A stretch of DNA of 38,851 nt, taken from assembly GCA_023539495.1 (NCBI GenBank), contig JAKCEV010000003.1, positions 1 through 38,851 of the forward strand. The letters are read 5' to 3'. Numbering within the stretch: the first letter of the stretch is position 1; each line of letters opens with the position of its first letter. The notes below the pieces were generated by a model. The model searched no databases, was not told where the DNA came from, and saw only the letters and a program-made list of their open reading frames with translations. This DNA is from Candidatus Wolframiiraptor allenii. GTDB lineage: Archaea; Thermoproteota; Nitrososphaeria_A; Caldarchaeales; Wolframiiraptoraceae. The position numbers were made by a program, and so were the translations under genes. Below are positions 1,527 to 38,851 of this stretch, piece after piece.

Positions 1527-2807
1527 TTGCTGATGAGGGAACGGTTGAGGGGGTTCTCAAAACTGACGAGCATTGAAGATGCTCAGGAGATGCTGAGAAA
1601 CAAAGTTACGTATAGGATAATAGATGTTGAGGAGGTTGAGCTAGGCGCGGCCACTGGCAGGATTTGTGGAGAGGATATCAGGGCGCCTATGGACTCTCCA
1701 GCATATGATAGGAGCGCTGTTGACGGCTATGCTGTTGTGGCCGAGGATACTTTCGGCGCCTCTCCCACGAACCCCGTGGAGCTTAAACTTGTCTGCAGGA
1801 TTGAACTAGGCGCGGCCCCATCATGTCTTCCGGAGATTAGGAGAGGTGAGGCTGCCGAAGTACCGACCGGCGGCCCGATACCGAGGGGCGCGAACGCCGT
1901 CGTCCCCTTTGAGCATGCCAAGAGGATTAATGGCCGCTTAGAGGTATATGAACAGGTACGACCTCTTCAAAACATCTCTAGAAGGGGTGAGGATTATCGA
2001 AGTGGCGAAATCGTATTGAGGAGGGGCTGGCTTATCAAGCCTTGGCATGTCGCAGCCCTAGCATCACTCGGCTTCAGGAGCTTGAGGGTTATTAGAAGGC
2101 CGCGCGTCGCCATCCTCTCATCTGGCGGGGAGCTTGTCGAGCCGGGTGAGAGGCTAGCTCCGGGCAGGGTGTATAACTGCACTAAGCCCATGATATGGGC
2201 CATGCTCACATTCTATGGCGCCGAGCCAATAGACCTGGGCACGGTCCCAGACGATGTTGACCTCATCTACGAGAGAATTTCTGAGGGGCTGAAGGTCTCT
2301 GATGCCGTGATAGTTACTGGCGGCACAAGTGTTGGGGAGCGTGATCTGGTCCCGGAAGCAATCTCGAGGATCGGCGAGATCGCGGTTCATGGGCTCGCGA
2401 TAAGGCCTGGCAAGCCTATGGGATTCGCGACGGCCTCCGGTAAGCCGGTATTCATGCTCTCAGGATTTCCCGTAGCGGCGCTAATAGGTTTCCAGGAGCT
2501 GGTCATCCCGGCCTTGGAGCACATGCTCGGGTGCAAGTTTGATCCACCTCCAAGAGTAAGTGGAAGGCTTACTAGGAAGGTGGCATCACCGCCAGGGATC
2601 AGAACATATGTCAGGGTTAGAGTTTTCAGGAGCGCTGATGGGGAAGTCTTGATTGAGCCACTGAGGGTCACAGGCTCCGGCATACTCTCAACCCTCACTC
2701 GTGGGAATGGCCTACTAATCATTCCGGAGGAACTTGAAGGCCTTGATGAGGGCTCCAAGGTCGAGGTCATCCTCCTCTCACCAATCTTCGAGGGTGATGA
2801 GGCTTGA
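1527..2807 (+). CDS. moeA: Molybdopterin molybdenumtransferase MoeA
   Basis: MDSPAYDRSAVDGYAV, GGPIPRGANAVV, VTGGTSVGERD, RPGKPMGFA and SGFPVAAL motifs. Confidence 0.9.
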   Translation: MLMRERLRGFSKLTSIEDAQEMLRNKVTYRIIDVEEVELGAATGRICGEDIRAPMDSPAYDRSAVDGYAVVAEDTFGASPTNPVELKLVCRIELGAAPSCLPEIRRGEAAEVPTGGPIPRGANAVVPFEHAKRINGRLEVYEQVRPLQNISRRGEDYRSGEIVLRRGWLIKPWHVAALASLGFRSLRVIRRPRVAILSSGGELVEPGERLAPGRVYNCTKPMIWAMLTFYGAEPIDLGTVPDDVDLIYERISEGLKVSDAVIVTGGTSVGERDLVPEAISRIGEIAVHGLAIRPGKPMGFATASGKPVFMLSGFPVAALIGFQELVIPALEHMLGCKFDPPPRVSGRLTRKVASPPGIRTYVRVRVFRSADGEVLIEPLRVTGSGILSTLTRGNGLLIIPEELEGLDEGSKVEVILLSPIFEGDEA

Positions 2808-4735
2808 GAAAGATATTCCACGAGCTCCCAACACTCCGCGAGGCTCTCGAACGCGTTCTTGAGAAGGTCTCTCCTCCCGGAGTTGAGGAGGTGGCACTAG
2901 ATGATGCTCTCGGCAGGGTATTGGCATCCGATGTGTATGCGATGGTTGATTCCCCGCCATTCGATAGATCGCTTGTGGATGGTTATGCTGTTAGGGCCGA
3001 GGACACTTATCAAGCGGATGAGGAGAACCCCGTTGAGCTTAAGCTCGTCGGCAAGATCGATGTGGGCGAGAGACCGCGTGTGATAATACATGAGGGCGAG
3101 TGTGCCGAGATCTCAACAGGTGCTCCGATACCGCGAGGTGCAAACGCCATTGTTATGGTCGAGTATACGAGCCAGTCGGGGGATAAGGTAAAGGTCCTCA
3201 GGGCTGTTAGGCCCGGCGAGAATATAGCGCAGGTGGGCTCGGACATCTCCGCGGGAGATCTCGTGCTGAGGAGGGGAAGAATGCTGACGGCTAGGGAGAT
3301 CGCGGTGCTCGCCGCTCTCGGATACTCCAAGGTCATGGTGTATAAAAGACCTAGGATTGCGGTTTTTTCGATCGGGAGGGAGCTCGTTAAGCCGGGGCAG
3401 CCGCTGGAGCTCGGGAAGATATATGACGTCAACGGCTATTCGATTTTCAGCCTCCTAGCAGAGCTCGGCCTCGCCGCAGCATTCAAAGGGATACTGCCCG
3501 ATGATGAGGAGGTGATTCTCAGGAGCCTCAGGGAGGCGTTAGAGGAGAATGACATAGTGATAACATCGGGCGGTACATCAGCCGGCCTCGGAGACTTAAC
3601 CTATAGGGCTTTTGAGAAGCTCGGAAGAGTAATTGTTCACGGGGTTAGGGTTAGACCTGGGAAGCCAACAATAATCGCGATCACGCCTGGTGGCAGGCTC
3701 TTAATCGGGCTACCCGGCTTCCCGCTCTCCGCCATGATGATCTTCATTTCCCTAGTTAAGCCGATACTATTGAGGCTCATGGGCGTTGACGTGGAGGAGC
3801 CTGATACCATTCGAGCTGAGGCGGCATTCAGGCTGAACCTCGGCGGGAGAACCCACCTAATACCCGTGCATCTCGTCGAGACCTCTAAGGGGCTTAGGGC
3901 TTACCCGATGCTGGGGGACTCTGGCTCAACCTCAGCGCTACTTGACGCTGATGGATTCATAGAGGTGCCCGGCGAGAAGCAGTATCTCGATGAGGGCGAG
4001 GTCGTGGAGGTTAAGCTCTTCAGGAGATATAGGCCTCCGAGTACCGTGATTATAGGAAGCCATTGCCCCGCCCTCGACCTGCTGATAGATGTGGCCGGCT
4101 TGAGGAATATCAAGATGATAAGTGTTGGCTCCCTTGGAGGATGGTATGCGCTGAAGAGGGGCGAGGCCGATATTGCTGGAACACACCTCCTCGATGAAGA
4201 GACCATGAACTACAACATCCATATGCCTAGAAGGCTTGGGCTCGAGGACGAGGTCGAGATCTACGGTGGCTATATTAGGGAGATAGGGTTCATAACTGCC
4301 CCAGGCAACCCGAAGAATATCAGGGGCTTCGAGGACCTGCTAAGACCCGATGTCGTCTTCGTCAACAGGGTTCCTGGATCCGGGATAAGGACCTTCACAG
4401 ATCTCCAGCTCAGGAGGCTTGGAGTAATGGATCCGGAGAGAAGGATAAGGGGTTACACGTACCAAGTGAAAACACATACGGCGGTCGCAGCCGCCGTCGC
4501 CCAGGGAAGAGCTGATGTAGGGATCGCGGTTGGATATGTAGCCAAGATCTATGGCCTCGAATTCATACACCTTATGGATGAGAGATTTGACCTCGCCGTT
4601 CGCAAGGATAGGATATACAAGAGATCCGTTGAAGTGATTCTCGAGACATTGGGGAGCAGAAGCTTCGCCGAGAGATTGAGCAAGCTACCACATTACAGGA
4701 TTACGGATGAAATTGGACGTAGGATCTACCCATGA
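2804..4735 (+). CDS. moeA: MoeA with C-terminal periplasmic-binding-protein-like (LysR-substrate/PBP) domain
   Basis: MoeA motifs (VDSPPFDRSLVDGYAV, GGTSAGLGD, RPGKPT) followed by a PBP-like domain (IIGSHCPALDLLIDVA...VNRVPGSGIRTFTDLQLRRLG...HTAVAAAVAQGRADVGIAV). Confidence 0.9.
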   Translation: MRKIFHELPTLREALERVLEKVSPPGVEEVALDDALGRVLASDVYAMVDSPPFDRSLVDGYAVRAEDTYQADEENPVELKLVGKIDVGERPRVIIHEGECAEISTGAPIPRGANAIVMVEYTSQSGDKVKVLRAVRPGENIAQVGSDISAGDLVLRRGRMLTAREIAVLAALGYSKVMVYKRPRIAVFSIGRELVKPGQPLELGKIYDVNGYSIFSLLAELGLAAAFKGILPDDEEVILRSLREALEENDIVITSGGTSAGLGDLTYRAFEKLGRVIVHGVRVRPGKPTIIAITPGGRLLIGLPGFPLSAMMIFISLVKPILLRLMGVDVEEPDTIRAEAAFRLNLGGRTHLIPVHLVETSKGLRAYPMLGDSGSTSALLDADGFIEVPGEKQYLDEGEVVEVKLFRRYRPPSTVIIGSHCPALDLLIDVAGLRNIKMISVGSLGGWYALKRGEADIAGTHLLDEETMNYNIHMPRRLGLEDEVEIYGGYIREIGFITAPGNPKNIRGFEDLLRPDVVFVNRVPGSGIRTFTDLQLRRLGVMDPERRIRGYTYQVKTHTAVAAAVAQGRADVGIAVGYVAKIYGLEFIHLMDERFDLAVRKDRIYKRSVEVILETLGSRSFAERLSKLPHYRITDEIGRRIYP

Positions 4736-21623: not shown

Positions 21624-22178
21624 TTATTTACGCGCGGGGCGAAAATTTGGGTAGCTTTCATGCGAGTCTTCATGCATTAGCTCTTTGTATGGAATATTGA
21701 CGTTGAACTGGATCTCGGATATATGGCATGTCCTTCCATGGAGTATTATGATGTGGCGTGTGGTCTTTGGGGGTAGGAGCTCCCCCCTCAAGCCGGCATT
21801 CAAGACAAGATCCTTTGAGAGCGGTTCTCCCCTACTCCAGCTTAGGACTGCGATTTTGGGGGAGCGGTAATTCACTAGGAGGCATGGAATTCTCCTGCAG
21901 CCCAGTCTTTTTAGGGCCTCAACCCTATGGTGTCCATCTATTATTATCAAGGTCTTGCTATCAACAACTATTGGCTTCCTGAGAAGACCGCACCTCTTAA
22001 TATCCTCGGCGAGCTCCTTGACAAGGTCCGGATCAACATTTTCATGAGGTCTCAGGAGGCTAATAGGCAGTATCGCAATCCGGGATGAAAGCTCCCGGAG
22101 GGCATCCCTAAGACTATCATCATCTACATATTCCTCAGCAGGTCCGAATAACATCATGCTTATCCCTATTACATGCAT
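21624..22178 (-). CDS. serK: ParB/sulfiredoxin-fold protein, likely ADP-dependent L-serine kinase (SerK-like)
   Basis: SLLRPHENVDPDLVKELAEDIKRCGLLRKPIVVDSKTLIIIDGHHRVEALKRLGCRRIPCLLV and PPKTTRHIIILHG; resembles SerK/SbnI ParB-like kinases. Confidence 0.75.
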   Translation of the reverse strand: MHVIGISMMLFGPAEEYVDDDSLRDALRELSSRIAILPISLLRPHENVDPDLVKELAEDIKRCGLLRKPIVVDSKTLIIIDGHHRVEALKRLGCRRIPCLLVNYRSPKIAVLSWSRGEPLSKDLVLNAGLRGELLPPKTTRHIIILHGRTCHISEIQFNVNIPYKELMHEDSHESYPNFRPARK

Positions 22179-22241
22179 AACAACGTAATTTAAATTTTCC
22201 CTGGAAACCTTATAACCACATCGTCCCTAGCCATCTCGAGG

Positions 22242-23582
22242 TTGAGGGTGGTGGCAAGCTCGAATAACGTTAAGATCGTAGATCTGGCCTCCCTACGAAG
22301 GGTTTTCGAGGTCGACCTGGCCCTAGTCATGGAGGCTTATAGCCGTGTCATGAGAAGTCAGCGCCTCGATAAACCCCTGGTAGTCGAGAGGAATACAGGG
22401 ATAGTTATTGGAGGGGTTGAGGTTCTCGAGGCACTAGACCTCCTATCGGCCTCCAAGGCTCCAGCGCTGCTTATTGGCCAAGATCAAGTCATGATTAAAC
22501 GGCTCTCAGGGGAGATCCTTAAGGTAGATGATCTGCTCGAGGAGTTCCGGCTTGGGCGGAACAGACTTCCCCTCCGCAACTTCGAGATCAAATACCTGAT
22601 CGATATTCCATCAATAGATGTGCCATTGGATCATCTATACGGGGGTGTAAGGATTGATAGGCGCGTGCTCAGGGTTTATGATGATACGCTGTCTCTGCTT
22701 GTGGAGAATTGGCCAACACCTCTTGTAAGGCTAAAATCATTTTCATCGGATTATAGGAGGGTTTACGCGAAGCTCGAATCCTTCAACCCATTCAGTAATA
22801 GCGTGAAGGATAGGATCGGCTGGGCAATGATAATGGATGCGCTAAGCCGCGGCGCCCTTGGAGATCTACTATACGAAGCTACATCCACGAATACCGGGAT
22901 AGCGCTGGCCTCAATAGGGAATGCTCTGGGGAGGAGGGTTAAGCTCTTCATTCCCAAGACGGTCCAGAGGGTTAGTGATGTATTCCTCAAGACATTGGGC
23001 GCCGAGGTAGTTAGGGTTCCGGTCAGCCTGACTGTGGAGGCGATCGCCGAGGTGGAGGCATCCGCAAGAAGGGATGGCGCAACCCATTTGAACCAGTTCG
23101 AGAATGACGCAAATTTCAAGGTACATCTTAAGTATACCGCTAGGGAGCTCGATCAACAGCTCAGGTCGATAGGTGTTGAGCCTGACTGCATCATCGGCGG
23201 TCTCGGGACATCCGGGCATATGAGCGCCATCTCATTCTATTTCAAGAGCAAGTATGGCGACAGCGTCAGGATCGTGGGCGTCCAACCGGCCCAAGGCCAT
23301 GTGATTCCCGGAATAAGAAGGGTCGAATCCGGGATGAAATGGATACACATGGTCAAGTTCGACGAGATAATTGACGTGACATCTGACGAAGCGATCGAGG
23401 GAGTGATTGAAGTCGCGCGGAGGGAGGGTCTCCTCATAGGGCTAAGCTCCGGGGCGGTCTTCAAGGCATTCAGAAAGCTCTCCCCAGAAAGAGGCAACAT
23501 AGTCTTAATATTCCCGGACAATGGTTACAAGTATGCGGAACAATTAGAGGAATATTTCAGGAAGCGCGAACAAACAAAATAG
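22242..23582 (+). CDS. Cysteine synthase / O-phosphoserine sulfhydrylase-like PLP enzyme with degenerate SerK/ParB-like N-terminal domain
   Basis: KLESFNPFSNSVKDRIGWAMI PLP-Lys region, TSTNTGIALA, GGLGTSGHM, GLSSGAV; N-term ~65 aa aligns ungapped with the neighbouring SerK. Confidence 0.85.
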   Translation: MRVVASSNNVKIVDLASLRRVFEVDLALVMEAYSRVMRSQRLDKPLVVERNTGIVIGGVEVLEALDLLSASKAPALLIGQDQVMIKRLSGEILKVDDLLEEFRLGRNRLPLRNFEIKYLIDIPSIDVPLDHLYGGVRIDRRVLRVYDDTLSLLVENWPTPLVRLKSFSSDYRRVYAKLESFNPFSNSVKDRIGWAMIMDALSRGALGDLLYEATSTNTGIALASIGNALGRRVKLFIPKTVQRVSDVFLKTLGAEVVRVPVSLTVEAIAEVEASARRDGATHLNQFENDANFKVHLKYTARELDQQLRSIGVEPDCIIGGLGTSGHMSAISFYFKSKYGDSVRIVGVQPAQGHVIPGIRRVESGMKWIHMVKFDEIIDVTSDEAIEGVIEVARREGLLIGLSSGAVFKAFRKLSPERGNIVLIFPDNGYKYAEQLEEYFRKREQTK

Positions 23583-37529: not shown

Positions 37530-37796
37530 TTGTGGAGGCATGGCTGGCTACGTGGATGCCTTCAAGGAGGCCGGCCCCTTAAGGAGTTTATTGGGGTCTT
37601 GGATTACGTGGACTCGGCACCTGCCATTGTTGAGAGATATAGGCCACCGCCGGTCATCGCTAGGACGCTCGTATATGATGACCTCAAAATGCTCGACGAC
37701 TTCGCCAGAGAGTACCGCGGGTATGTTGGCAAGGCGATGGACTACGTCTGCGAGGAGCTACGAAGCCTACTCTACGAAATCCTCGGAGGTGAGTGA
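37524..37796 (+). CDS. Small hypothetical protein overlapping the start of tnpB; true N-terminus unclear
   Basis: ...PLKEFIGVLDYVDSAPAIVERYRPPPVIARTLVYDDLKMLDDFAREYRGYVGKAMDYVCEELRSLLYEILGGE; stop overlaps tnpB GTG start (GTGA). Confidence 0.5.
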   Translation: MVLWRHGWLRGCLQGGRPLKEFIGVLDYVDSAPAIVERYRPPPVIARTLVYDDLKMLDDFAREYRGYVGKAMDYVCEELRSLLYEILGGE

Positions 37797-38851
37797 AGGT
37801 GAAGAGGAATTGTACTGTGGAGCTGGTGGTTGATGAGGAGACCAAGAAGAGGCTGAGACAGTTATGCGATCTTTCATCGAAGCTATGGAACGAGGTCAAT
37901 TACGCCAGGCTGAGGATGTGGCTGGAGAAGAGGCATATTGACTTTGATGGGACATATAGGGAGTTTTATGAGAAGTATAAGCCATTGATAGGCGCCGTCA
38001 CGACGCAGACGGTCCTGCTGAGGAATGGTAAGGCGTGGAAGAGCTTCTTCAGGCTGTTGGAGCTGAGGAGGGAGGGGAGGCTGCCGCCGTCTATAACAAG
38101 GGTCAGTCCGCCGGGATATAAGAAGAAGAGGAAGCCTAGGGTGCTGTGGACCATTATTAGAAAAGACCAGTACGAGATGGATGGCGACAGGATCGTCATA
38201 AAGTGGCTTGGCGCAATCGGCTGGATAGAGACGAAGTATAAGGGCCCAGTATATTTGAAGGGCGAGCGGGGAGAGCTCATGATACGCTATGACGCCGATA
38301 GAAAGAGGTGGTATGCCAACATAGCCTTCTCCAAGGTCTCCGAGAAGATGGTAAGGAGCGAGTGGAGGAGGGTGCCGCTGCGGCCGAAAGGCAACTTGAC
38401 CGCTGGCGTGGACATCGGAGTCAATAACATGTTAGCGGTATATGTTGAGGATGGGTCAACGAAGCTCGTCAATGGCAAGCCGCTGAAGGCGATATCGTAT
38501 TATTGGAGGAAGAAGATCGCCGAATACCAGTCCACGCTAAACGGGCATGGCCTAGAGACTTCCAAGAGGCTTAGGAGGATGTACGCAAAATGGAGGAGGC
38601 AGGTAAGAAGCTACATAAACGCCAAGGTGAGGGAGGCCGTAGAGTGGCTCTATGAAGTCGGCGTCTCCACGATTAAAGTTGGCTATCCGAGTATATCGCG
38701 CAGAGGAACGGCAACTTCGATAACGTCCACGTCTGGACGTATAAATATCTACTGAAGCGGATAGCGGAGATTGCCGAAGAACATGGAATCAGCGTCATCT
38801 ACGTTGATGAGAGAGGCACCTCGTCGAGGTGTCCATGGCATGGAGATGAAT
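37793..38851 (+). pseudogene. tnpB: TnpB (IS200/IS605 or IS607 family RuvC nuclease), frameshifted near 38690 and truncated by the window end
   Basis: RuvC I AGVDIGVNN; ...VGYP then +1 frame EYIAQRNGNFDNVHVWTYKYLLKRIAEIAEEHGISVIYVDERGTSSRCPWHGDE (RuvC II Glu and first zinc-ribbon Cys). Confidence 0.88.

Follow-up and report, generated by a model that had tools for sequence, protein, structure and literature searches.

Organisation of the locus and its two genes

The analysed window, a stretch of 38,851 nucleotides from a heat-loving archaeon, harbours two divergent genes predicted to participate in cysteine synthesis. The first encodes a compact SerK-like free serine kinase of 184 aa (21624..22178, minus strand; NCBIfam SerK E 1.1e-16; PDB SerK 5x0b E 6.5e-11). 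The second encodes a CysO-type O-phosphoserine sulfhydrylase (OPSS) of 446 aa with a pseudo-SerK domain at its N-terminus (22242..23582, plus strand), for which the full-length AF2 model reached a pLDDT of 87.8 and a pTM of 0.87. According to the ORF coordinates, a divergent intergenic region of 63 bp (22179..22241) lies between them. Both ORFs are those named in the original prediction. The OPSS ORF starts with TTG; an alternative GTG start 2-3 codons further in is also possible. The genus of the window was identified as Candidatus Wolframiiraptor via locus L062, which is 87% identical, and the serK and OPSS genes are divergent in this genus.

The compact SerK possesses the motifs of the kinase active site. 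These include H45-E46 (22041..22046, minus strand), invariant in the alignment of 27/27 SerKs, and the DGHHR motif at residues 81-85 (21924..21938, minus strand), invariant in 27/27 free SerKs. The PPKTTRH motif at residues 136-142 (21753..21773, minus strand) aligns to SPKTTRH of Thermococcus SerK, and its H142 is invariant. E46 corresponds to the catalytic Glu30 of Thermococcus SerK, which is mutated in PDB entries 5x0j, 5x0k, 5x0e and 5x0g according to the structure titles. The closest PDB sequence matches are Thermococcus and Pyrococcus SerK (E 6.5e-11) and SbnI. This is in agreement with the prediction of a SerK-like kinase beside a cysteine synthase.

However, the compact protein lacks, in its middle, about 100 residues that separate the motif parts in Thermococcus SerK (TK0378; PDB 5x0b; full length about 242 aa), and it scores 60.8 bits against the curated cut-off of 380 of NCBIfam SerK NF053625. 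With this score and length, its sequence identifies it as a compact SerK-like kinase rather than an NF053625 equivalog. Thermococcus SerK is ADP-dependent, and the original prediction named it as a precedent. The use of ADP cannot be assumed for the compact neighbour because of the missing residues.

Matches of the compact SerK type are widespread in the phylum (184/300 genomes at 1e-5), with longer paralogues included among the weaker matches. Many of these archaea also have another family of SerK/ParB-like paralogues, which are longer at about 220-305 aa (whole-genome matches, frames of about 260-310 aa). In passages of the 2016 SerK paper, many archaea are regarded as having no clear SerK homologues (PMC5120207), and the compact SerK is a serine kinase candidate for many of them.

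The PLP-dependent core of the sulfhydrylase comprises residues 145-446 (22674..23579, plus strand; Pfam PALP E 3.5e-51), with Aeropyrum pernix CysO (1wkv, 3vsc, 6l0p) as its top PDB match (1wkv, E 1.1e-63). It is a fold-type II core with a PLP lysine, K189 (22806..22808, plus strand), aligned to the PLP Lys127 of Aeropyrum OPSS, for which K127A appears in a structure title. R359 (23316..23318, plus strand) aligns to Arg297 of the same enzyme, and both residues are invariant in 26 relatives. The full-length model of the window protein aligns with Aeropyrum CysO over 442-445 columns. According to the passages on this residue in PMC5120207, Arg297 recognises O-phosphoserine.

The genome encodes three PALP proteins, among which the OPSS search matched the 22242-23582 product. 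The search of the genome for serine acetyltransferase gave no good CysE match (best 34.7 bits, cut-off 210.65). A 3-phosphoglycerate dehydrogenase-like protein was found in the genome, with a score under its cut-off. Arg359, the linkage to SerK and the lack of a good CysE match point to O-phosphoserine, not O-acetylserine, as the likely substrate of the window OPSS. The proposed route to cysteine through O-phosphoserine is probable, with the K127 and R297 equivalents both in place.

The N-terminal domain of the sulfhydrylase

Residues 8-135 of the OPSS (22263..22646, plus strand) very probably represent the whole SerK fold. In the ungapped alignment of 65 residues between SerK and the OPSS N-terminus, for which about 24 identities had been estimated by eye, exactly 24 were counted. 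The Smith-Waterman score of this pair was 98, and 2000 shuffles gave a mean of 30.7 (sd 5.5) and a maximum of 59. Single-sequence searches failed: Pfam ParB_N was not reported for any of 14 fused domains, and phmmer of the N-domain against the PDB recovered no SerK relationship. Therefore, profile comparison was needed. With hhalign, the profile of the 14 fused domains matched that of 27 SerKs over 129 columns with a probability of 99.5% and an E-value of 2.9e-22, and reversed and column-shuffled profile controls remained below 1%. The match covers the whole compact SerK: it begins at the first strand, includes the C-terminal PPKTTRH region and ends with the last PxVxxPLxxL segment. It is longer than the similarity first described.

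The fold prediction agrees with the profile match. The nine best PDB matches retrieved with Foldseek for the AlphaFold model of OPSS residues 1-147 (pLDDT 83.2, pTM 0.75) are all SerK or SbnI, with E-values from 6.7e-7 to 1e-4 and query TM values of 0.62-0.73; sulfiredoxin and ParB rank after them. Neither of the outcomes that the original prediction had named as refuting it, a different fold of the N-terminus or a profile similarity at background level, occurred. Chance similarity, or a generic ParB-like match without a special tie to SerK, would fit the missing ParB_N reports and the E-value of no better than 0.09 with which the fused-domain sequence profile finds SbnI in the PDB, but we give it practically no credence, since the shuffle scores, the clean hhalign controls around the E 2.9e-22 match and the ranking of SerK and SbnI above all other ParB-fold structures rule it out.

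The fused domain has the fold of Thermococcus SerK without its active site. As described in the original prediction, the alignment places V21-F22 (22302..22307, plus strand) where SerK has the catalytic His-Glu, and G57-G-V-E-V61 (22410..22424, plus strand) where SerK has DGHHR. Six sites (H45, E46, H84, R85, Y104 and H142 in SerK numbering) are kept in 27/27 free SerKs and in 8/8 active halves of the triple fusions described below, and in 0/24 fused domains. The catalytic residues of a serine kinase are absent from residues 8-135, and the fused domain is almost surely without kinase activity, as had been supposed.

Between close relatives, dN/dS is 0.13-0.22 for the fused domain, 0.06 for the PLP core and 0.09-0.11 for SerK. 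These ratios indicate that the pseudo-SerK domain is maintained under purifying selection. Conservation specific to the fused domain, and not shared with SerK, falls mainly on Y33, L67, S69 and F114, which are mostly hydrophobic; no conserved polar docking patch was evident among these positions.

Distribution of the domain and fusion with an intact SerK

The full-length fused domains all fall into a single clade (100/100), which is separate from all SerKs and spans Wolframiiraptor, Bathyarchaeota-labelled MAGs and Culexarchaeum. That the domain was recently copied from the serK next to it is ruled out, since the fused domains are one clade and the window SerK groups with free SerKs. In the tree of the PLP core, the enzymes bearing an N-domain are grouped (SH-aLRT 98), with the long-domain clade within this group (97). 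Most domain-less enzymes fall outside it, and the two found inside, L126 and L132, have ORFs which may be incomplete. This tree is a quick, long-branched one, in which the exact order of domain losses is unsure. Judged by its phylogeny, the pseudo-SerK domain of archaeal OPSS is ancient and arose once, and it is no peculiarity of the window locus.

The length of the domain is graded, from about 140 to about 90 and about 70 residues, until it is absent, as in the outer set of archaeal OPSS. In many lineages the domain has been shortened to about 60-100 residues, including some with serK next to the OPSS gene, and such short versions are common. The profile of 48 short domains matched SerK with an hhalign probability of 98.4% (E 7e-15); taken by themselves, the four short domains with the strongest erosion reached only 61%. 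The N-domain of the Aeropyrum pair (2 sequences) matched the short class at 95.7% and SerK directly at 5.5%, so that the membership of the Aeropyrum domain, like that of the most eroded ones, rests on intermediates. In Aeropyrum CysO the N-domain has about 83 residues, without the later half of the kinase, unlike the domain of the window protein. From its match to the short class, and that of the short class to SerK, the N-domain of the crystallised Aeropyrum OPSS is best read as an eroded SerK, which would explain where the N-terminal domain of this archaeal enzyme, so far unaccounted for, came from. In 2005, Oda reportedly assigned this domain to a new alpha/beta fold and did not derive it from SerK.

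Eight archaeal MAG loci (L072-L077, L080 and L082, with L078 left out) encode an intact compact SerK, then a pseudo-SerK and then the PLP core in one ORF of 572-589 aa. The active halves of these triple fusions retain HE, DG-x-HR and PPKT-S/T-x-H. In six triple-fusion genomes tested, the fused SerK was the best SerK match in 6/6 and the sole match in one. An assembly artefact is unlikely because several MAGs share the arrangement. Such a protein is a predicted single-chain serine-to-cysteine enzyme, with which the coupling of the two steps is testable with one gene.

The otherwise invariant DGHHR reads DGEHR in seven triple fusions and DGVHR in one, from which it would follow that the triple-fusion kinases are altered or can do without the first His. 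Two related loci look like triple fusions in decay: the active SerK half of L078 has apparently been deleted in frame except for its two ends, and L081 still has this half in degenerate form.

The linkage of SerK and sulfhydrylase, for which a synteny survey had been proposed, is found beyond the window. Besides the eight triple fusions, a serK ORF flanks 26/73 OPSS loci without fusion, usually just upstream and in the same direction. The loci are relatives of one another and should not be taken as independent cases. No separate SerK was detected at E 1e-5 in 2/15 long-form genomes (G140 and G016, both 93% complete). In the class of G016 no triple fusions were found; the long form was seen there, together with separate SerKs in two genomes.

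Another fusion was observed in a Bathyarchaeota MAG, in which a MoaD/SAMP1-like ubiquitin-fold domain precedes the pseudo-SerK and OPSS (L125:1991-3607, plus strand). It scores 63.2 bits for moaD_arch (cut-off 49.5) and 61.4 for SAMP1 (cut-off 60), and could be a built-in sulfur carrier. In L083/L015 just an IFIPAVSGGSQ tail is left of such a domain.

We consider the triple fusions new here. A literature search retrieved no paper linking OPSS to a SerK/ParB domain; its coverage of subscription journals was incomplete and earlier notice is possible. The passages on SerK in Makino et al. 2016 describe the kinase and its link to cysteine, and these passages mention neither a fusion nor the homology of the N-domain (PMC5120207). 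Kaljevic et al. 2025 describe, in passages on ParB-CTPase fold fusions, a similar situation, in which ParB-fold domains, SerK included, are fused to other domains, in archaea to CBS, ASCH, MT-A70 and others, and the word 'pyridoxal' is absent from the text (PMC12704722). The triple fusions score 22-25 bits on Pfam ParB_N, under the cut-off of 26.3, and a Pfam-based survey could therefore miss them.

Possible roles of the pseudo-SerK domain

Judging from the families to which the two proteins belong, the compact SerK would phosphorylate free serine to O-phosphoserine, and the CysO-type PLP enzyme would exchange the phosphate for sulfide to give cysteine. The pseudo-SerK would act as a non-catalytic partner of the active SerK, in trans at the window but in cis where all three parts are fused. 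By this pairing, the two enzymes would remain joined and O-phosphoserine would be handed on efficiently. Docking, substrate channelling or allostery, the roles suggested in the original prediction, are likewise hypothetical. The pairing of the dead domain with an active SerK is suggested by their paralogy, by the linkage of the genes and by the order SerK, pseudo-SerK, OPSS in the fused proteins, and on these grounds we give the coupling of OPSS to SerK through the domain a little less than an even chance. For the explanation as a whole, a two-step route from serine to cysteine with the pseudo-SerK as coupling module, the chances appear evenly balanced. A metabolic kinase has here very probably become a non-catalytic part of the enzyme that follows it in the pathway. 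Coupling through the domain is not universal, since the domain is shortened even beside serK and absent in the outer archaeal OPSS. The two long-form genomes in which no separate SerK was detected and the lack of an evident conserved polar docking patch also count against coupling.

Related arrangements are found in other systems. In bacteria and plants, the cysteine synthase complex of serine acetyltransferase and O-acetylserine sulfhydrylase couples the activating enzyme to the sulfhydrylase. A physical coupling of serine activation to the sulfhydrylase at the window would be an analogue, with an unrelated activating enzyme and a different intermediate. A more far-reaching and rather unlikely proposal is that SerK and pseudo-SerK pair as a heterodimer, in trans at the window and within one chain in the triple fusions. 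The resulting archaeal cysteine synthase complex would pass O-phosphoserine directly from kinase to sulfhydrylase, and the N-domain of every archaeal OPSS that has one, including Aeropyrum CysO, would be its remnant. In the synthesis of staphyloferrin B, SbnI, a SerK-fold kinase making O-phosphoserine, is paired with SbnA, a CysK-fold PLP enzyme. SbnI was among the top fold matches of the N-domain and SbnA is a fold match of the OPSS. However, SbnI and SbnA are separate proteins with a different product, and we know of no fused pseudokinase in this system.

The main rival to a coupling module is a purely structural part of the OPSS, serving core packing or dimer or heat stability, which derives from an old capture of SerK, has lost catalysis and is slowly eroding. 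The graded erosion of the domain would be expected in this case, as would the mainly hydrophobic character of its conserved positions, a dN/dS above that of the core and the presence of a mere remnant in the Aeropyrum OPSS, a solved enzyme. Nonetheless, the full SerK length is retained across the Wolframiiraptor, Bathyarchaeota-labelled MAG and Culexarchaeum clade, and serK remains linked to the OPSS gene and is fused to it in eight loci. We regard a structural role as a tentative alternative, plausible but on the improbable side.

A ligand-binding regulator, which has lost phosphotransfer and controls the OPSS by sensing a nucleotide, serine or cysteine, appears improbable. Pseudo-enzymes often keep binding, which counts for this reading together with the purifying selection on the domain. 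The ParB fold also binds several NTPs (PMC12704722). However, in 24/24 domains hydrophobic or variable residues stand in place of those of the SerK active site, which makes a ligand sensor less likely, and no conserved new polar pocket was found among the positions of the fused domain. Of these readings, a coupling module is the most likely.

Elsewhere in the window, two MoeA-like genes (1527-2807 and 2804-4735) overlap by 4 bp, and the second possesses a long C-terminal extension, as judged by eye from the translations. This pair is of interest because Wolframiiraptor gerlachensis has been reported as tungsten-dependent (PMC9246946). The ORF at 37793-38755 resembles, by eye, a TnpB-type transposon protein.
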